Of a stretch of DNA of 39,080 bases, positions 349 through 15,205 are shown in pieces. Below the pieces are notes generated by a model. The model saw nothing but the letters and a program-made list of their open reading frames with translations, was not told where the DNA came from and ran no database searches. Both the position numbers and the translations under genes were made by a program. This DNA comes from a virus: IMG/VR virus record IMGVR_UViG_3300044766_000043, positions 1-39,080 of that record. The stretch is one strand, 5' to 3'. How positions within the stretch are numbered: position 1 is the first letter of the stretch; the number at the start of each line of letters is the position of its first letter.

Positions 349-451
349 CGGCCGACGCCGACAGCGTCAGAAGGTGAAAGGGCATTTTGCAGCGAAGGAC
401 CTGGCCTTCGTAAAAGAGAATGAAATGCGGATCCAGATAGACGTTTCTCAC
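224..451 (-). CDS. Small protein with a C-terminal membrane segment (chimeric variant of the 53-aa protein at 38895)
   Basis: Seventy-five codons start at GTG 451, which overlaps the nuclease stop in a GTGA arrangement that suggests translational coupling. The first 34 residues (RNVYLDPHFILF onward) lie in the 127-bp repeat and are identical to the 53-aa protein at the right end. Past base 349 the C-terminus differs completely and contains a hydrophobic helix (about residues 47-69, LAIVLTLGAIAALLACIIF) and a short basic tail. It may be a real allelic variant in another phage. In this window it probably records two alternative continuations after the same coding start. Function unknown. Confidence 0.5.
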   Translation of the reverse strand: MRNVYLDPHFILFYEGQVLRCKMPFHLLTLSASAAPRYSLREGLEATLAIVLTLGAIAALLACIIFTLTAARKPD

Positions 452-475
452 GATATTTTCCCCCGGTCGCGGTCC
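349..475. repeat. Left copy of exact 127-bp repeat (circle junction)
   Basis: Identical base for base to 38954-39080. It covers the end of the nuclease gene and the start of the following small gene. The left copy is internal (348 bp from the end) while the right copy ends exactly at the window end. The length of 127 equals the largest k-mer commonly used by de Bruijn assemblers, so an assembly overlap is the simplest explanation. A phage terminal repeat would have to sit at both ends. Confidence 0.9.
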
Positions 476-1566
476 AGGTATGGCGCCGTCGGCTTTTCGT
501 CGACGCATCCGGACAGCAATTCTTCGATCAGGTGTTCCAGGGCCGGGCCCCGGCGTTTGGTCGCTTCCCGAACCAGTTCGGTCAGCTTCTTTTTGTCGAT
601 CATGACGGCCTGAAGGAATCGTTCCTGAGAAATTCCCAGGTCGGCGCAATGCTGAAAGACCCTTTGCGGGTCGGAAATATAAGTCCGCGCTTCCCCGACG
701 TTCAATCGCCAGCCGGGGACCGCTTCGCCGTCGGCCAGCCGGCGCTTCGCTTCTTCCTTCACGGCCCGGATGACGTCTTCGGACGCATAGCTTCGGGCCA
801 GGAAGGCGGCGATTTCTTCGTTGCTGGCGATCCCGGCCGGGTTCAGTTCGCCCAGCTTCACGGCCGCGGCCTTTGCTTCCGGGCAATCCCGCCGGCAAGA
901 GCAATATTTGCACCAATTGCCGGCGGTCCTGGGGGCGTCGGGATCCTTCGCCCGATCCAGGTCGCCGATCAATTCATCCCGGGCCCGGATCAGGTCATCG
1001 GCGTCATAATGACAAATCGAATAAGGCGGTCGAAACCAAGGCTGATTGACGGCGACGAAGCCCCGATGAAAACCCCAGTTTTCGGCGATCAGGACCGCCA
1101 GGGCCCGAAGCTGAAGATTCCCCGGGGCCTTCGCGACTTCATGGCGCCCGCTTTTGTCGTCGATCAAGACGAAGTCTTCAACGCCATCGGCTGATGCCAT
1201 GAAATCAAACCGGCCCGAAAAGACGACCGCGGGCGCCTGGATCCATAGTCGACACTCGCTTCGCGTTTCCAGTTTCAGGTCCGGCGGAAAGATCGTGTCC
1301 AGGATGTCCCGGCGTCCGGCGACCAGGCTTTTGAACGTCTTCTGTTCGTCGTCGGTCAGGGCGTCGAACTTCAGGGATCCTTCCATGGCCGCGGCGATTC
1401 GCTGGCCCGATTCGGTCCAGGGCAAGACCGGCGCCGGCCGGCCTGGCAGGGCCCGCTTCAAATTCAAATAACCCCGGCAATGGTGGATCCGGGGATATTC
1501 AGACGCGGACGGAAGGCCCCGGCGTTCATCCACCGGGCCCCCGGAAATGACGACGCCTGATGTCAT
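448..1566 (-). CDS. PD-(D/E)XK exonuclease with Cas4/AddB-type Fe-S cysteines
   Basis: 372 residues. The catalytic core is visible: Asp121 in GRFDFMA, then LIDDKSG with Asp136-x-Lys138, and a QLRAL stretch near 152 like the family's motif with conserved Gln. One Cys lies near the N-terminus (Cys30 in RIHHCRGYL) and a cluster lies after the core (Cys219, 222, 224, 228). That layout is typical of Fe-S-stabilised RecB-family nucleases such as Cas4 and AddB. The protein likely resects duplex DNA ends for recombination. It sits directly after an annealase-like gene (4-bp overlap, ATGA), as in phage exonuclease/annealase pairs. The 3' end overlaps the next small gene. No CRISPR genes are present, so a Cas role is unlikely. 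Confidence 0.8.
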   Translation of the reverse strand: MTSGVVISGGPVDERRGLPSASEYPRIHHCRGYLNLKRALPGRPAPVLPWTESGQRIAAAMEGSLKFDALTDDEQKTFKSLVAGRRDILDTIFPPDLKLETRSECRLWIQAPAVVFSGRFDFMASADGVEDFVLIDDKSGRHEVAKAPGNLQLRALAVLIAENWGFHRGFVAVNQPWFRPPYSICHYDADDLIRARDELIGDLDRAKDPDAPRTAGNWCKYCSCRRDCPEAKAAAVKLGELNPAGIASNEEIAAFLARSYASEDVIRAVKEEAKRRLADGEAVPGWRLNVGEARTYISDPQRVFQHCADLGISQERFLQAVMIDKKKLTELVREATKRRGPALEHLIEELLSGCVDEKPTAPYLDRDRGKIS

Positions 1567-2735
1567 GACGTCTTTGTCGGCAAGGGGAAGATTTTTGACG
1601 CTTCGTCCAGGATCCCGGTCGGAAGGGCGAACAGTTCGTCAATCCCGTCCGGGACCTTTCCCAGCTTCTTCAGGTCATCGAAGAACCGGCGTTCATCGAC
1701 CTTCGCGTCCAGCAAACAGTTTTTCAGGCCGTCGATGATCTTCGCGCGTTCTTCGGCCGAATAAGTCTTCGCTGGGACCGATTCCGGCAATCTGGCCTTT
1801 TTGTCAGGTTGACCCGACTGATCCGCCGGCGGGCCCGCCTGGGCCGTCTTTTCAGCCTTCTCGGCTTCGAAAAGCGGTTTGGATGCGGACGTCGCGGCCG
1901 GCGCCTGGGCCCCCGCCAGGGGCGGGAAACAGTCGTCGATCGTCGCTTCATCGTCCCGGATCGCCGTCCGAAGGCCGGTCAGGACTTCCAGTTGCCGGAC
2001 GCCCAGGTCGCCTTCGCCGACGATTCCCAGGGATGCGAAGACCCGGGCCGGGTCGATGTTCGAATCTTTGACCCAGTTCATCACGGCCGCGCGCCGGGCC
2101 TTCATCGATTTCCGGTCGCCCAGCAGCACTTCCCAGACCTTCGTTTCGATCGGTTTCAGCAAACCGCGCGGAATCACCTGGAAGACGGCATCCCGGCGGG
2201 CCTTCGCAAGACAGGCTTTCGCGACGACGACCGCCATCCGTTCGGAATAGGGCGTCCCCTGCCTGGTCACGGTCGCTTCGACCGCTTCGGATGACGACGC
2301 ATAATTATTTTCGACATCGAACGCCATCCCGCGGCAGCGGACAAAGCGTTCCGACCGTTCGACGATCATCGCATAGACCCGGATGTTCTGGAAACAGGAG
2401 GCGGCGATTTCCGCCAGCCGCACGGACATGCCTGAAGCGAATTCCATCACCTTCCGTCCGTTGACCATCTTCGCCCCGACCGGCCGGTTGTAAACGCAAC
2501 TTTCGGCGACTTCTTCGTCTTGGGTCGCCTGGGTCATCGCGTCCTTCTGAAACTTTTCGATTGATCGGGCGTATTTCTTCGCGGTCTCGATCTGGATGTC
2601 GATTTCGGTTCGGTCGATTCGCTGCAACGCTTCCGTCCCGACGACTTCGACGGATCCGGTCTGGAATTCTTCGTCAGCTTGCGCTGGCGGGGACGCCAGG
2701 TTAGCCGGCGAGTTTTGTTTCTGGTTTTTCTTCAT
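1563..2735 (-). CDS. Putative phage recombination protein (RecT/Rad52-like annealase candidate)
   Basis: 390 residues. The core, about residues 40-265, runs from TEIDIQIETAKKYARSI through SVRLAEIAASCF to ECFPP-like text (DDCFPPLAG). It resembles a phage family usually found beside exonucleases and thought to act in single-strand annealing. I recognise it from general pattern memory, not a search. The C-terminal 125 residues are a low-complexity Ala/Pro/Lys linker plus a short helical tail, which would suit an SSB- or nuclease-contacting tail. It precedes the Fe-S nuclease with a 4-bp overlap, and its start overlaps the end of the Cys-containing protein by 35 bp. No strong Shine-Dalgarno is visible, so coupling to the upstream gene is likely. 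It could also be a replication accessory protein. Confidence 0.6.
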   Translation of the reverse strand: MKKNQKQNSPANLASPPAQADEEFQTGSVEVVGTEALQRIDRTEIDIQIETAKKYARSIEKFQKDAMTQATQDEEVAESCVYNRPVGAKMVNGRKVMEFASGMSVRLAEIAASCFQNIRVYAMIVERSERFVRCRGMAFDVENNYASSSEAVEATVTRQGTPYSERMAVVVAKACLAKARRDAVFQVIPRGLLKPIETKVWEVLLGDRKSMKARRAAVMNWVKDSNIDPARVFASLGIVGEGDLGVRQLEVLTGLRTAIRDDEATIDDCFPPLAGAQAPAATSASKPLFEAEKAEKTAQAGPPADQSGQPDKKARLPESVPAKTYSAEERAKIIDGLKNCLLDAKVDERRFFDDLKKLGKVPDGIDELFALPTGILDEASKIFPLPTKTS

Positions 2736-2991: not shown

Positions 2992-3054
2992 AGATGTTTT
3001 TCCTTCAGAAATTGGCTTCGCCCAGAATCATCCGGGCGAAGCGTTTAGCCTGCA

Positions 3055-3216
3055 TTGCCCCGCCCAGCCTTGCCTCGCCGGGCCTTGCCGCGCCACGCCT
3101 GCCTTGCCATGCCCCGCCAAGCCAGGCCTTGCCCCGCCGCGCCGGGCCTGCCTTGCCCCGCCGCGCCTTGCCCAGCCTTGCCCAGCCTTGCCCAGCCTTG
3201 CCATGCCTGCCTTGCC
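3055..3216. repeat. 33-unit pentanucleotide array NNGCC (GGCNN on the transcribed strand)
   Basis: Read on the + strand, bases 3055-3216 parse without remainder into 33 units ending in GCC: thirty 5-mers (NNGCC) and three 4-mers (TGCC). Each 4-mer is followed by TTGCC. TTGCC is the commonest unit, alternating with CCGCC, CAGCC, GCGCC, GGGCC, ATGCC and others. A CAGCC-TTGCC pair repeats three times near the 3' end. The array fills most of the 230-bp gap between the genes at 3222 and 2991, so on the leftward transcript it is a G-rich GGCNN leader. All frames are open but the translation is low-complexity Gly/Lys/Ala/Arg, so I do not call a gene. Confidence 0.9.
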
Positions 3217-3221
3217 TCTGA

Positions 3222-3704
3222 TCAATCATGCAGTTGCTTTCTGACTGATCGGATCGCCTGGAACACGCGCGCCAATTCCCGGAGACTGGCGTATTTCTCC
3301 GAAAACAGCTTCATCTCTTCGATCGCATCCTTCAAAAGCTGGCATCGCATGTCCCGATTCGCTAGGACGAAGGTCATTTCCCTATAACCCCCGCCGGCGC
3401 AATAACGATCCGGCTTCAGGCTGACGAAGACCCGGACCTTCATTCCCCGGCCGTTGATCGAAATGACCCGGAAGGTCCGCTGGATCAGTTCGCGGGCCTG
3501 CCAAAGTCGGAATTCGGCCGCGGCCTTCGTGTCATCCCATTGAAAGACGGCGTGAAGGGGCGACCGCGGGGATCGGGCCCGGTCGATAACGATGGCCGGG
3601 ACCAGGACGCCGGAATTGCGCGCGGCGAGCGAACGAAGTTCGGCGATGATCCGCCGGCGCCGTTTGCTAGACAACGCCGGTTTCATGGGATTTTTCCAGT
3701 TCAA
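3222..3704 (-). CDS. Conserved phage protein of unknown function (recombination operon)
   Basis: 160 residues from ATG 3704. An internal ATG at 3686 (MKPALSS) is an equally plausible start and would halve the overlap with the preceding gene. The middle (SPLHAVFQWDDTKAAAEF, then WQARELIQ) and the GGGYREM segment followed by a helical C-terminus match a widespread phage family I have seen beside recombination genes. It has no known activity. The N-terminus is rich in Arg/Lys (SSKRRRR), which could bind nucleic acid. It is followed by the GGCNN array. Confidence 0.65.
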   Translation of the reverse strand: MNWKNPMKPALSSKRRRRIIAELRSLAARNSGVLVPAIVIDRARSPRSPLHAVFQWDDTKAAAEFRLWQARELIQRTFRVISINGRGMKVRVFVSLKPDRYCAGGGYREMTFVLANRDMRCQLLKDAIEEMKLFSEKYASLRELARVFQAIRSVRKQLHD

Positions 3705-4308
3705 AGGTTCCCCATCCCATGCCGGCGGACTTCTTTGAATCGGGCCGGCCTTCCCCGATGCCTACTTGAAGACCGACGCGAGCCAGAAGATTCGACACGT
3801 CCGATAAGGTAAACTGATCCTGATCCCAACGGATCCGGATCTTTGCCTTCCAGTCATGGAAGGCGGCGCGAACGATCAAATAAGATGTCCCGGTTTCGAC
3901 CCGGCCGATGTCTTCCTGTTTGATCGGCTTGCCGATGATCCGGATCAAGGGGATTTGCGGTTCGATCTTATCGACGCCGTCGGCGATGACGAAGATCGAC
4001 AGCTTCGCCAAAGTCATTTTGAAATCGACCAATCTGCAAGCCGAAATCATCGCGTTTCGAATCGCGCCGGCGTGGAATCCGTCCCAGCCTTCTTTCGAAC
4101 GATAGCGGGCCAGTTCGAACAATTCGTCGGTCGATTGTGGTTCGCGTTTCTTCTTCGAAGATGCCGCTTTGCCGGTTTCCATCTTCGTCATGAATTCGCG
4201 TTTTGTCTTGGCGCTGAAACGGTGGATGACCAGGGGCGTCAAGCCACGAATGGCGAACGTCGCGGTCCCGAACTTTGGGGGCGCGATGGTTATTGTTTGG
4301 GTTTTCAT
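3667..4308 (-). CDS. Conserved phage protein of unknown function, RAMP-like appearance
   Basis: 213 residues. It begins with a beta-rich stretch (GTATFAIRGLTPLVIHRF), then a Lys-rich loop, then FHAGAIRNAMISACRLVD, and ends with LLARVGLQVGIGEGRPDSK. The layout recurs in many phages and superficially resembles RAMP/Cas6-like ferredoxin folds with a glycine-rich loop, but I see no evidence of CRISPR function. It lies 3 bp after the stop of the 93-aa gene at 4312 and overlaps the next gene by 20-38 bp. A nucleic-acid-binding recombination accessory is my guess; it is not demonstrated. Confidence 0.65.
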   Translation of the reverse strand: MKTQTITIAPPKFGTATFAIRGLTPLVIHRFSAKTKREFMTKMETGKAASSKKKREPQSTDELFELARYRSKEGWDGFHAGAIRNAMISACRLVDFKMTLAKLSIFVIADGVDKIEPQIPLIRIIGKPIKQEDIGRVETGTSYLIVRAAFHDWKAKIRIRWDQDQFTLSDVSNLLARVGLQVGIGEGRPDSKKSAGMGWGTFELEKSHETGVV

Positions 4309-9251: not shown

Positions 9252-11093
9252 ATGACCGAAGACGAAATCAGTTTCGACCGGGCGGTCCGCGGAACCTGCC
9301 AGGCCCCCGACCGGCGGGAAGTCTGGGCCTGGGGCGCCGAATTCATGGACTTCGGGTCGACCGAAGCGTTCAAAGGCCATTACAACGTCGAAAACACGCC
9401 CTGGACCCGGGACTTCCTTCGGGCCTTCCGGGATCCCTATGTCCGCGAACTGACCTTCATCGGCCCGCCCCAGGAATCCGGGAAGACCTTCGCGGCCGAA
9501 ATCGCCCTTCTTTACCGCGCGTGCAATCAGCCCGCGAAGATGGCGTTCAACACAACGACGAACGTGAAGGCCGACGGCTTCGCGGAAACGAAATGGAAGT
9601 CGGCGATGTCAGCCTGTTCGAAGATCAGCGACCGGTTTTCAGGCGACCGGCATCAGAAGAAGCGTCGCCGGATCGTTTTCAAAGACGGATCCTTCCTGAT
9701 CATCCAAGGGGCCGAAACGCCGGGCAACCGGCAAAGCGATTCGATCGAAGTCCAGGTCAACGACGAAGTCGCCCTTTGGGAACGGCCCTGGTTAGCCCAG
9801 ATGCACAACCGGCTGCGGGCCTATCGGGAAACCCGGAAGATCGTGAACATCAGTTTCGGGGGCGTGAAGGGGACGGAAATCCATGAACATTTCCAGGCCG
9901 GAACGCAAAACGAATGGTCGCATGTCTGCCCGGCTTGCGGCCGGCCTTTCCAGTACGTTTTCGACAACCGGTCGCCGGCGTGCAATATCAAGTTCGATCT
10001 GGCGAAGGCGGTCCTTCATCCGAACGGGTCCCTGGATCTCCGGGAATTCGCGAAGACTGTCTTCGTCTTCTGTCAGAATCCGGTTTGCGGCCAGCGGTTC
10101 GAATGGTCGGCCGACCTGATGGCGCAACTGAACAGTCGCGGCGTTTATGTCCCGATGAACCCCGGCGCCAGCCGGGAAGTTGAATCCTTTCACGTCAACG
10201 CCTTCGCGATCGGCCGGCGACCCTGGGCGCAAATCCTGGAACCCTGGGTCCGGATGAACCTGAAGGGGACGATCTTCGCGATGGAAGTCCTGAAGGAATT
10301 CGTCCAGATGGAACTGGCGGAATTCTGGGAAGACCGGCCGATCATCGTTTCGACGGACCTGAAGCTGGCGACCTATCTTCGCGCCGAAATGATCAAGCCC
10401 GGAGCCTGGCCGGACGAATGGGTCCGGATGATGGCGGTCGACAATCAGCGGGGCCAACACGGCGACATCCCGCATCGATGGTTTGTCTGTCGGGCCTTCG
10501 CCCGGGACGGCCGGACCCGCCTGGTCGATTGCGGCCGGCTGAACGAATGGGAACAGGTCCGGGAAAAACAGCATGAACTGGGGATCCCGGACTGGACCGC
10601 GGAACGGCCGGGCCCCTGGGTGGTCGTCGATCGCGCTTATGATCCGACCCAGGTCGACGAAGTCTGTTCGCGCTTCAAGTGGTTCGGGATGCTGGGCCAG
10701 CCGACGGACGAATTCGTTCACGGCCCCCGGTCCCCCTATGCGGAGCAAAGGATGTTTTTCAGCGAACCGCGGGCGATCGACATCGGCTTCGGAACCGCGG
10801 AAGCCGGGCGCAACTTCGCCGTCTATCATCTTTGGTCTTCGGAGCGGATCCAGGACTTGCTGGCCGCGATCCGCCAGAACGCCGAACAGTTCGCCCTTCC
10901 GTCCGACTTGATGGAATTCGCGCCGGAATACGCCGACCATATAAATTCCCATCGACAGACGATGAAGATGACGCCGGCCGGCCAGGAAAAACTGACCTGG
11001 GTCAAGATCGGCGGCTGGCCGGATCACCTTTACGATTGCGAATCGATGCTGGTCGTCCTGGGCCTGATGGCCGGCGTCTTTCAAAGACCATGA
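9252..11093 (+). CDS. Terminase large subunit, GpA family
   Basis: 613 residues. A Walker-A-like GPPQESGKT lies at 71-79, and a Walker-B-like segment ends in VNDE near 169-172. A Zn-type cysteine set follows (Cys226, Cys229, Cys274, Cys279). The C-terminal nuclease domain begins near MMAVDNQRG (about 394) and contains VVVDRAYD and LYDCESM. These features fit the lambda gpA type (ATPase translocase plus endonuclease), which cuts and packages DNA into proheads. Its stop overlaps the glycosyltransferase start (ATGA), which is unusual because gpW normally follows. Confidence 0.92.
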   Translation: MTEDEISFDRAVRGTCQAPDRREVWAWGAEFMDFGSTEAFKGHYNVENTPWTRDFLRAFRDPYVRELTFIGPPQESGKTFAAEIALLYRACNQPAKMAFNTTTNVKADGFAETKWKSAMSACSKISDRFSGDRHQKKRRRIVFKDGSFLIIQGAETPGNRQSDSIEVQVNDEVALWERPWLAQMHNRLRAYRETRKIVNISFGGVKGTEIHEHFQAGTQNEWSHVCPACGRPFQYVFDNRSPACNIKFDLAKAVLHPNGSLDLREFAKTVFVFCQNPVCGQRFEWSADLMAQLNSRGVYVPMNPGASREVESFHVNAFAIGRRPWAQILEPWVRMNLKGTIFAMEVLKEFVQMELAEFWEDRPIIVSTDLKLATYLRAEMIKPGAWPDEWVRMMAVDNQRGQHGDIPHRWFVCRAFARDGRTRLVDCGRLNEWEQVREKQHELGIPDWTAERPGPWVVVDRAYDPTQVDEVCSRFKWFGMLGQPTDEFVHGPRSPYAEQRMFFSEPRAIDIGFGTAEAGRNFAVYHLWSSERIQDLLAAIRQNAEQFALPSDLMEFAPEYADHINSHRQTMKMTPAGQEKLTWVKIGGWPDHLYDCESMLVVLGLMAGVFQRP

Positions 11094-11812
11094 TCATCAC
11101 CGCGCAATGCTTCTTTAACGAACTGGACCTGTTCGAAATCAAGTGCGCTGAACTGGCCGGCCTGGTCGACGCGCACGTCGTCCTGGAAGCGACGACGACT
11201 TTTTGCGGGGCCCCGAAGCCCCTTCATTTCGCCGAACACCGCGGTCGCTTCGCCGGGTTCACGATCATCCATCAGGCGATCGATCTTCCCTCCGTCGGAT
11301 CGGGATGGGATCGGGAATATTTTCAACGCCAGGCTTTGCTGGCCCTGGTCAAATCGGTCCGGCCGGAAATCGTGATCTGGGTCGACGCCGACGAACTTCC
11401 CCGGGCCAGCACAATCGAACGCTTCCGGGCGACAAAGCTGAAGATCGCGACGATCGAAATGGATCAGCTTCTTTTTTTCTTCAACCGGATCGATCTGAGG
11501 GATACGCCCTGGACGAACGGGAAGATCGAATTCCTTCATCCGTCCCGACACGGCTGTCCGAACCGGGTCGAACCGGCGCCCGGGATCCCGGATGCCGGCT
11601 GGCATTTCGAATTTTTCGGCGACCGGCCGACCTTGCTGGCGAAGCTGGCGGCGACTTCGCACGCCCCCGAACCCGGATCGGTCGACATGCGGGCGAAGGT
11701 TTCGGCGGGCCAGTTGCCCGGGATCGAACGGACCTTCCCTTATCCCGAAGAGAAGATCCCGCAATATGTCCGGGCCAGCCGCGGCCGGTTCGCAACCTGG
11801 TTTCATCCATGA
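11090..11812 (+). CDS. GT17-like glycosyltransferase
   Basis: 240 residues. The N-terminus ITAQCFFNELDLFEIKCAEL, followed by VDAHVVLEATTTF and an AP-KPLHF segment, is characteristic of glycosyltransferase family 17 (beta-1,4-N-acetylglucosaminyl-transfer type). A VDADELP acidic motif follows near residue 100. In phages such enzymes can modify virion or host surface glycans, or rarely DNA; substrate unknown here. It is embedded between terL and the gpW-like gene with 4-bp overlaps on both sides and has house codon use, so it has been resident long enough to share the genome's bias. Confidence 0.8.
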   Translation: MIITAQCFFNELDLFEIKCAELAGLVDAHVVLEATTTFCGAPKPLHFAEHRGRFAGFTIIHQAIDLPSVGSGWDREYFQRQALLALVKSVRPEIVIWVDADELPRASTIERFRATKLKIATIEMDQLLFFFNRIDLRDTPWTNGKIEFLHPSRHGCPNRVEPAPGIPDAGWHFEFFGDRPTLLAKLAATSHAPEPGSVDMRAKVSAGQLPGIERTFPYPEEKIPQYVRASRGRFATWFHP

Positions 11813-13323
11813 AACGCTTCCCGAAGACCTTCGTCCAGTTAGGCCGCGCGGGCGACCTGTTAAACATCCTTCCCCTGGTCAAACACGAATTCCAGAAGCA
11901 TAAGATCCGGCCGCGGATCATGGTCGCTAGGGAATTCGCCGACATCCTGGACGGCGTCAAATACGCGGAACCCCTGATCTGGCCGGGCCGGTTTGAAGAC
12001 GTGAAGCCCGCGGTCTGGACCGCCGGGCGCCAGAAGGGCGACCTGGTCATCCCGCAAATCTACGGACATGATTGGTCGCCGGCAAAGCTTTGCACGTCCT
12101 TCGTCCGGGATTCCTGGCGGGTCGCCGGCGCTGATGTCCCCTGGGGATCGCTCCCCCTGGAATTCGACCGGCGGGACCGCGAAGGCGCGCGGACGGTCCT
12201 TCGTCATTTCGGCGTTTGCCCGGATGGCCGGCCTTTCGTCCTTCTGGCGGTCGACGCCATGTCATCCCCCTTCACCGGCGCGCTGTCCCTGAAGGCCCTG
12301 TTAAGCTATTCGCTGAAGGACTTCCGGATCATCAATCTGGCCGGATACCGGGCCCGGCATGTCTTCGACTTGCTGGATCTGTTCGATCGGGCCCATTGCC
12401 TTGTCACGGTCGACGCCGGCCTTCTTCACCTGGCGCACGCTTCCCGGGTTCCCGTCGTCACCCTGGTCGAATCCCATCCGACGCGCTGGCATGGGTCGGC
12501 CTGGCGCCCGCATCATGTCGCCCGCTTCCTTTATGATGATTTCCCGGCTTGCGAACGGGCCCTGGTCGACGCCGTCGTCAACGCCCGGGCGCCCAGCTAT
12601 CGGCCGACGATCATTCACGCCTGGACCGAATACCGCGGACAGACGATGGACGACGACACCGCCCGCCGGACGGCCCTTGCGCGAAAGTCCTGGGCCCCGG
12701 AATATCAGACCGGATACTGGATCGAACGGCGCTTCAGCCGGCGGAATTCGGCCCGGGATTCCCGCGGGATCGGGGATCCCCGGGGCGTTCCCTATGTCCG
12801 CGACGTCATCGACCATGCGATGATCATCGCCCGCAAGCCTTCCGACATCATCGCCCTGACAAACGCCGACGTCGGTTTCACGCCCGGCCTGACCGGCTGG
12901 ATCCTTCAGGCCGTCCGGCGACATGGCGCGGCCTTCGCCCATCGCTGGGATTTCGACCGCCTGGACCGGCTTTGCCTGTCGGAAGCGGAAGTGATGACCC
13001 AGGCGAAGTTTTACGTCGGGACGGACGCCTTCTTCTTTTCGGTCGCATGGTGGAAACAATACGGGCCCGAATTCCCGGACATGCTGATCGGCCGCGAACA
13101 TTGGGATGAAGTCTTCCGGCAACTGATCAAACGATATGCCGGCGTCCAGCTTGCCGGGGCGATCTATCATGAACGCCATCCGTCCTTCTGGGAACGGATG
13201 GACCAGCACGCGACGAACCGCGGCAACTGGCATAACACAAATCTAACGAAGTCCTGGTTTGCCCGGACCGGTTATCGGCCGATGGATTCTGAATGGTGGA
13301 AGGTCCCGGTCGATAACTTTTGA
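11809..13323 (+). CDS. Two-domain glycosyltransferase (GT9-like plus second GT-like domain)
   Basis: 504 residues. Residues 1-260 resemble heptosyltransferase-type GT-B enzymes: QLGRAGDLLNILP at 10-22, and VTVDAGLLHLAHASRVPVV at 199-217, the nucleotide-sugar-binding half. Residues 290-504 look like a separate domain with ALTNADVGF (349-357), YVGTDAFFF and IGREHWDE, like a small GT-A-type module. Both domains in one chain suggest sequential sugar additions or bifunctional modification. It overlaps the GT17-like gene (ATGA) and precedes the gpW-like gene, so it is co-expressed with packaging and capsid genes. Substrate unknown. Confidence 0.75.
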   Translation: MKRFPKTFVQLGRAGDLLNILPLVKHEFQKHKIRPRIMVAREFADILDGVKYAEPLIWPGRFEDVKPAVWTAGRQKGDLVIPQIYGHDWSPAKLCTSFVRDSWRVAGADVPWGSLPLEFDRRDREGARTVLRHFGVCPDGRPFVLLAVDAMSSPFTGALSLKALLSYSLKDFRIINLAGYRARHVFDLLDLFDRAHCLVTVDAGLLHLAHASRVPVVTLVESHPTRWHGSAWRPHHVARFLYDDFPACERALVDAVVNARAPSYRPTIIHAWTEYRGQTMDDDTARRTALARKSWAPEYQTGYWIERRFSRRNSARDSRGIGDPRGVPYVRDVIDHAMIIARKPSDIIALTNADVGFTPGLTGWILQAVRRHGAAFAHRWDFDRLDRLCLSEAEVMTQAKFYVGTDAFFFSVAWWKQYGPEFPDMLIGREHWDEVFRQLIKRYAGVQLAGAIYHERHPSFWERMDQHATNRGNWHNTNLTKSWFARTGYRPMDSEWWKVPVDNF

Positions 13324-13355: not shown

Positions 13356-13643
13356 ATGGCAACCCCGGTCCTAGACTTTGGCAGCTTCACGACCGCAGAG
13401 AAGGCGAACCTTCTGGCGGTCGCCAAAGCTGAATATTTGCGGCGAATCGTCACCGGTCGCGTGACCCAGGGATCTTCCGCGGCCCAAAGCTACGGCATCG
13501 ACCTGATGCAAATCGGCGACCTGATCCGCCTGATCAACGGCCTGACGGTCGACCTGGGCCTTCAGACGGTCGAAACCCGGGTCCGGCCGGTCTTCAACCA
13601 GGGGCCCGCGATCGGCCCGACGAACCCCATCGGATTTATATGA
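13356..13643 (+). CDS. gpW-like head-tail joining protein
   Basis: 95 residues, preceded by GGAAGG. Small size and placement after terL and its cargo but directly before the portal (4-bp overlap) match the lambda A-W-B order. The helix-loop text (EKANLLAVAKAEYLRRI, then IGDLIRLINGL) suits this head-completion family. The sequence match to gpW itself is loose, so this call is mostly positional. Confidence 0.65.
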   Translation: MATPVLDFGSFTTAEKANLLAVAKAEYLRRIVTGRVTQGSSAAQSYGIDLMQIGDLIRLINGLTVDLGLQTVETRVRPVFNQGPAIGPTNPIGFI

Positions 13644-15205
13644 GACTGACTGACCTGGCCTATTCGATGATCACCGGATCCTGGAAGCTGGACCGGCTTC
13701 GCGCAAAGGAATTCCTGGCGCTGGAACAGCGTCGCGATCGCCTTCAGCTTTACGCCGGCGCGAATCCCGGCCTGAACCGGCCGATGCCGAACGTCCTGAA
13801 CACGCCGGAAGACTTCAAACAGGCTTATGAACGGATCGTCCTAATCCGCGCGGCCCGGCAATTGGAAGAAGACTTCCCCTTCATCGACGGGATCCTGGGC
13901 GATTTCGAAACCTTCGTCGTCGGCGAAATGCAATATCTTCCGAACACCGGGAACCCGGACGCCGACAAGGCGATCCGCGGCTTTCTGGACTGGCAATTCC
14001 AGTCCCCGGACCTGTCGGGGCGCCTGGACCTGGCGACGATCGCCCGCCTGGCGATCCGGACGAAGAAGCGGGACGGCGAAGCCGGCTTCAAACTGGTCGA
14101 CGTCGGCGACGCCCTGAAGATCCATTATTATTCCGCGGACCTGATCGGGAACCCCCTGGTCGGGGCGAACATCGGGCCCAGCAATTACAACGGAATTATC
14201 GTCGATGAAAACACCGGGGCCGTTGTCAATTTCGACCTATACAAGCGACTTCCGAAGCTCAACGCCTACGTCTTTCAGGAGCGGATCCCCGCAAACTGGT
14301 TTATTCATTTTTACGACCCTTTCCGCTTCGAACAATATCACGGCGTCACGGCGTTCAAAAACGCGATCGAACACGCCTTCGACATCGACCAGATCGTCGA
14401 ATTCACGAAGTTGAATATCAAATATAGGTCGGCCCAGCTTCCCTTCATCCAGAACGAACAGGGCCGGCCGCGCGGGACCGGGTACGAACCCCAGGCCCCG
14501 ACCCAGACGGGCCAGCCGGTCCCGATGAACGTCCAGGTCGACGGCGTCAACACGACCTTCATGAAGCTGGGGGAACAGGTCGTCGAATTCCCGAACGACT
14601 TCCCGAATCAGCAATTCCTTCCGGTCATCACGGAATTGAAGCGGGACATCGCCCTGGGGGCGAAGCTTCCCTTCGAATTCGTCTATCGGTCGGAAACCGG
14701 GGGCGTCGTCCAACGTTTCTACGTTTCGAAGGCGGAACGCACGTTCGACGAAGAGAAGCGGCAACTGAAGCGGACGCTTCTGGATCCCTTCAAAAACCGG
14801 ACGATCCAGAAGGGGATCGACACCGGCTTCCTGGACCTGTCCAGCTTCGGGAACCTGGCGACTTCACTGGACCGTTTCGGCGGATCCTGGTCCCTGGGCC
14901 GGTCGATTTCCGTCGACTATGGCCGGGAAACGAAGGCCGACATCGAATTGATCGACGCGGGCCTGATGTCGCCCGACGAACACGCGGCCGATAACGGCCG
15001 GAACATGGACGACATCCGGGCGTCGATCAAAAGCAACGCGACCGCGATCCTGAAGGACGCGAAGGAAATCGCGAAGGAATTGGATCTTCCGGTCGAAACC
15101 GTCCTTCCCTACCTGGTCAAGAAATTCCCGAACCAGCGGGGCCAGGCCGGGGGTGCCGGCGGGATGGGCGGGGAAGCCGGCGGGGCGACGACCGTCGTCG
15201 AATAG
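13640..15205 (+). CDS. Portal protein (lambda gpB type)
   Basis: 521 residues, the usual portal length. The N-terminal half carries the family's DFPFIDGIL/GDFETFVVG-like segment. The middle includes HYYSADLIG and a WFIHFYDPFRFEQYHG motif, typical of lambda-type portals (H-x-x-P-x-R-x-x-Q-x-R/H-G), then AIEHAFDIDQIVEF. The C-terminus is Gly/Ala rich. It forms the dodecameric channel at the capsid vertex and docks TerL. Confidence 0.9.
   Translation: MRLTDLAYSMITGSWKLDRLRAKEFLALEQRRDRLQLYAGANPGLNRPMPNVLNTPEDFKQAYERIVLIRAARQLEEDFPFIDGILGDFETFVVGEMQYLPNTGNPDADKAIRGFLDWQFQSPDLSGRLDLATIARLAIRTKKRDGEAGFKLVDVGDALKIHYYSADLIGNPLVGANIGPSNYNGIIVDENTGAVVNFDLYKRLPKLNAYVFQERIPANWFIHFYDPFRFEQYHGVTAFKNAIEHAFDIDQIVEFTKLNIKYRSAQLPFIQNEQGRPRGTGYEPQAPTQTGQPVPMNVQVDGVNTTFMKLGEQVVEFPNDFPNQQFLPVITELKRDIALGAKLPFEFVYRSETGGVVQRFYVSKAERTFDEEKRQLKRTLLDPFKNRTIQKGIDTGFLDLSSFGNLATSLDRFGGSWSLGRSISVDYGRETKADIELIDAGLMSPDEHAADNGRNMDDIRASIKSNATAILKDAKEIAKELDLPVETVLPYLVKKFPNQRGQAGGAGGMGGEAGGATTVVE

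Follow-up and report, generated by a model that had tools for sequence, protein, structure and literature searches.

A GGCNN repeat array beside a vipr gene in a virus genome record is very probably the guide-RNA region of a phage VIPR system

The window analysed here comprises positions 1 to 39,080 of IMG/VR virus record IMGVR_UViG_3300044766_000043 and carries terminase (9252-11093) and portal (13640-15205) genes. An open reading frame between these two genes (11203-13323, plus strand) has a borderline match to glycosyltransferase family 9. Read along the minus strand, the locus of interest comprises a gene designated vipr (4308-3667), a partner gene (3704-3222), a GGCNN repeat array (3216-3051), a hairpin (3042-3015), a gene for a small Cys protein, and two recombination-type genes. 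The partner gene, for which a later ATG at 3686 is a possible alternative start, belongs to PHROG 15946 (E 2.8e-20). The more distal recombination-type gene (448-1566, minus strand) encodes an exonuclease that matches PHROG 69, PD-(D/E)XK nucleases and DUF2800, with weak matches to Cas4. The other (1563-2735, minus strand) falls into PHROG 3657, a family without assigned function, and owes its annealase label to the original prediction, which was made from the sequence of this stretch; its sole tblastn match in the phage collection was in Microcystis phage Mae-JY30 (29%). Searches of the whole window with Rfam and for tRNAs gave no match, and a scan for sigma-70-like promoters near the array found none.

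On the minus strand, the array contains 33 GGC triplets in a single unbroken chain (3057-3216 on the plus strand); successive triplets start 5 nt apart in 29 cases and 4 nt apart in three. When the window was simulated 200 times with a first-order Markov model, the longest GGCNN chain was 5 (mean 3.2), and the window outside the array reaches 4. The 33-unit array predicted at 3055-3216 is therefore real, although an altered junction extends its lower boundary from 3055 to about 3051. A tandem-repeat scan of the window returned period-5 and related repeats at this position only. On the plus strand, the most frequent units are TTGCC (10), CCGCC (4), CAGCC (4), GCGCC (3) and TGCC (3), with other types occurring once or twice each. 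All three 4-nt units are GGCA and each follows a GGCAA unit, so that TGCC stands beside TTGCC on the plus strand, as had been claimed. The array had also been described as perfectly phased; its period is indeed 5, but its phase is not constant, slipping by one base at every GGCA.

Within the array GGC is fixed while NN varies, giving more than ten unit types. A repeat that codes for protein, or a simple microsatellite expanded by slippage, has next to no chance of being the right reading. Most stop codons cannot form within the motif, hence open reading frames cross the array on both strands, but the period of 5 and the 4-nt steps shift the frame and TA units in relatives create TAG stops; the array is thus very probably non-coding, as originally proposed. 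Slippage would find a trace in a local duplication inside the array, a 10-bp repeat in which GGCTGGGCAA occurs about three times, but it is at odds with variable NN in a fixed GGC frame. Scanning IMG/VR for nine GGCNN units yielded at least 120 stretches, a few of which were plain repeats of one unit. The contigs that bear them differ widely in base composition and their NN vary, which indicates a widespread feature rather than slippage of one unit. NN also differ between relatives, the outcome expected if the array is not a microsatellite. Among examples that were read completely, arrays were intergenic and flanked small genes.

The 4-nt units are module boundaries. With a junction defined as GCAGGY, junctions in the window lie at 3210, 3151, 3102 and 3053, spaced 59, 49 and 49 nt apart. 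The first, GGCAAGGCA (3208-3216, minus strand), marks the 5' end of the array RNA, and the fourth, GGCAATGCAGGC, has one base changed and closes the array near 3051. Between them lie three minus-strand modules of 10-12 units each, whose NN are given here 5' to 3' on that strand. Module 1 (3149-3207, 59 nt) reads AT AA TG AA TG AA TG AA GC GG AA and ends in GGCA; module 2 (3100-3148, 49 nt) reads CC GC GG AA CT TT GG AT AA and also ends in GGCA; module 3 (3051-3099, 49 nt) reads GT GC AA CC GA AA TG GG AA and ends in an altered TGCA. Across loci, junction spacing was mostly 39-69 nt, and 152 of 174 distances equal 4 mod 5, a pattern that follows in part from the junction definition. What is informative is that each module has a single slip and that module lengths fall within a narrow range.

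The vipr gene (3667-4308, minus strand) encodes a predicted RAMP-fold guide-RNA-binding protein. This protein and its counterparts in two related loci (L104:1089-1655 and L032:3-425) are all assigned to PHROG 4652, as is ALH47069.1 of phage SUSP1, whose gene adjoins a GGY array. By BLASTP, the window Vipr and ALH47069.1 share 24% identity over 183 aa. A PDB sequence search with a profile of 26 window-type proteins matched the SUSP1 Vipr protein (36pp) with an E value of 1.7e-5, and no other PDB match fell below 0.001. The glycine-rich loop GxGxxRP...G is conserved between SUSP1 Vipr and the window protein. Judged by sequence, then, the window protein is a member of the same family as SUSP1 Vipr. 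Its predicted structure (pLDDT 81.8) matches Csm3 and other Cas7-type RAMPs, with Z scores of up to 10.4. Neither Vipr nor the partner protein was matched by Pfam or PADLOC. The partner protein, a candidate vipr-accessory protein (Vap), gave a confident AlphaFold2 model (pLDDT 92.5) with weak fold matches (best Z 6.3); several winged-helix regulators are among them, which would fit a DNA-binding Vap. The original prediction suggested that the array might bind a periodic protein. The array does adjoin the gene of a RAMP protein, a kind that binds RNA periodically, but a guide RNA had not been considered.

VIPR, first reported in April 2026, is a viral system that resembles CRISPR and targets DNA under RNA guidance, which its discoverers propose to be older than CRISPR (PMC13142463). 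Its Vipr protein is an ancestral RAMP protein, and its guide RNAs (vrRNAs) alternate GGY and NN, carry 9-16 repeats and a 3' tail with conserved structure, and match DNA such that a single base is skipped between consecutive NN pairs; an accessory gene (vap, vap1-6) adjoins vipr, and the systems are mainly encoded by phages and prophages (PMC13142463). The window likewise encodes, in a phage genome, a SUSP1-related RAMP-type Vipr with the glycine-rich loop, and has intergenic GGY/NN repeats beside vipr. Together with a small additional gene adjoining vipr and membership of Vipr in PHROG 4652, these features are shared with the VIPR of Escherichia phage SUSP1 (KT454805; PMC13142463). The two loci differ in that SUSP1 arrays are mostly GGT and occur as separate vrRNAs whose 3' tail is structured, whereas the window has GGC units and a continuous array in which several modules follow one another with slips in phase of one base; their partner genes also come from different families (PHROG 5926 in SUSP1, PHROG 15946 here). 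If modules are guides, the 10-12 units per window module fall within the published range. The same report describes "staggered arrays with overlapping vrRNAs" (PMC13142463, fig. S18), and the multi-guide array of the window may be this form. We consider it most likely that the three modules, with GGCA phase slips between them, give rise to three guides from one transcript.

Class 1 CRISPR-Cas systems offer a second comparison. The predicted RAMP fold of the window Vipr resembles that of Csm3/Cas7, although Vipr is only about 10% identical in sequence to Csm3 chains, and both kinds of system have a modular guide array. A CRISPR array was nevertheless rejected as an explanation: there are no near-identical repeats and unique spacers here, the constant part being a GGC every 5 nt with the variable bases dispersed in that scaffold.

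Gene neighbourhoods were compared across related loci. Of 57 related loci, 38 have a GGY array of at least eight units in the orientation of vipr, and none has one in the opposite orientation. The window array is best read as minus-strand RNA, as first supposed. The remaining 19 loci have no chain of at least eight GGY units; most of those inspected carry degenerate arrays with a varying triplet, and a few showed no array. Relatives of the locus were found in both virus contigs and phages. Of 65 vipr loci, 56 encode a relative of the partner gene, which adjoins vipr in those read. By contrast, relatives of 1563-2735 were detected in none of the 65 loci and relatives of the exonuclease in one, with a weak match, in a single-sequence tblastn survey of flanks of about 4-5 kb, which could miss distant relatives. 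The proposed tie of the array to the annealase/nuclease pair is not supported in these loci. The idea that the array is a recombination substrate or binding site for these two enzymes draws on their nearness in the window and on the PHROG 69 and PD-(D/E)XK matches of one of them. Given the survey, and given that the annealase identity of 1563-2735 is putative, we regard it as extremely improbable.

The array had further been called an operon leader that might set RNA structure, such as two-layer G-quadruplexes, and a rival reading is that of a cis-acting, G-rich RNA leader controlling the genes behind it. The array does precede the Cys protein and recombination genes on their strand, but it lies behind vipr and the partner gene. 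The array region also folds better than dinucleotide shuffles (z -4.9), plausibly owing in large part to the strong hairpin after the array (3015-3042, minus strand), which has 12 pairs, a loop of 4 and a z of -4.7 against mononucleotide shuffles. Elsewhere, however, the recombination genes were not found beside the arrays, arrays accompany vipr whether they lie on one side of it or the other, and the degenerate arrays of several relatives contain many units without GG, so that two-layer G-quadruplexes are unlikely as a common function. A cis-acting RNA leader is therefore a very unlikely reading of this locus.

The hairpin is possibly a tail or end structure of the array RNA. It was not seen in all relatives, and no general conserved 3' tail was found across them, with a mean z of -0.66 behind arrays compared to -0.34 before them. 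The arrays of Mycobacterium phage Donkeykong (L171:3795-3830) and its relatives end in TTGGCTGG-GCAA-CCAGCCAA, a perfect hairpin by eye, with a sequence unlike that of the window hairpin.

Related vipr genes occur in 27 mycobacteriophage records, some of them duplicates of one phage, and in Gordonia phages; the mycobacteriophages were isolated on Mycobacterium smegmatis. In those of the Cheoctovirus group, vipr regions are 98-100% identical to that of Mycobacterium phage Donkeykong. The annotated vipr start of Donkeykong gp49 (L171:3800-4546), like that of the corresponding gene in relatives, falls within the final part of the array (3498-3809); because its PHROG match begins only at residue 63, this start was probably annotated too early, and the annotated start in Quico is later. 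Ten arrays that we read from the Cheoctovirus group differ by the presence or absence of whole modules. Where homologous modules are of equal length, all substitutions seen are in NN, in a small sample comprising two substitution sites across three versions of a single module. At L160:2851-3360, beside a window-type vipr, lies a larger array related to that of the window, with 99 GGY units (98 of them GGC) in one chain and with 9-nt GGCACCGCA junctions besides GGCA. We tentatively suggest, at somewhat less than even odds, that the GGCA phase slip is a working boundary for a multi-guide transcript (a guide start, end or cut), and that guides come and go as entire modules, in the manner of CRISPR spacers, by a route not yet described.

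Targets of the window guides were sought with the 1-nt skip rule in IMG/VR, related virus records and genomes, and nothing above chance was found. For mycobacteriophage guides, genome contigs contained no target, and two of these guides had none in 15 mycobacteriophage records; one guide from a Bradyrhizobium locus had none in 266 genomes of that genus. Two candidates were set aside. One IMG/VR match to a mycobacteriophage guide lay within a repetitive gene from an AT-rich virus and was taken as chance, and a Saal-type module matched gene 50 of phage Charlie (JN256079 33346-33374) at 17 of 20 NN bases, with the skipped bases on wobble positions, which is unconvincing given the many searches made and serves at most as a lead. 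In the NN spectrum of 324 array runs, codon positions 1-2 were the best-fitting of three registers, in weak agreement with wobble-aligned targets. A model from NN base frequencies alone fits better still, and this register fit should be interpreted with caution. Sequence-based testing of the skip rule gave no confirmation either; with no target found, our account of array function in this phage is based on homology to published systems, and DNA targeting by its guides is inferred by analogy with them.

Collectively, the anatomy of the array and its modules, the kinship and predicted fold of Vipr, the partner gene, and the co-occurrence of arrays and vipr on one strand lead us to conclude, with a probability of roughly 0.93, that the minus-strand array at 3051-3216 constitutes the guide-RNA (vrRNA) region of a VIPR system carried by a phage. 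By analogy with the systems of SUSP1 and P. fulva (PMC13142463), Vipr subunits would bind the minus-strand transcript along its GGC triplets, leaving NN bases to pair with double-stranded DNA with one base skipped between pairs, and the bound complex could then act as a transcriptional repressor of a competing phage, satellite or prophage. The locus is a clear and compact example of VIPR in which a multi-guide array can be read and the boundary motif is defined. Since relatives of its vipr occur in phages of M. smegmatis and in Gordonia phages, this type of VIPR is testable in laboratory hosts, and comparison of nearly identical mycobacteriophages reveals how guide modules change.
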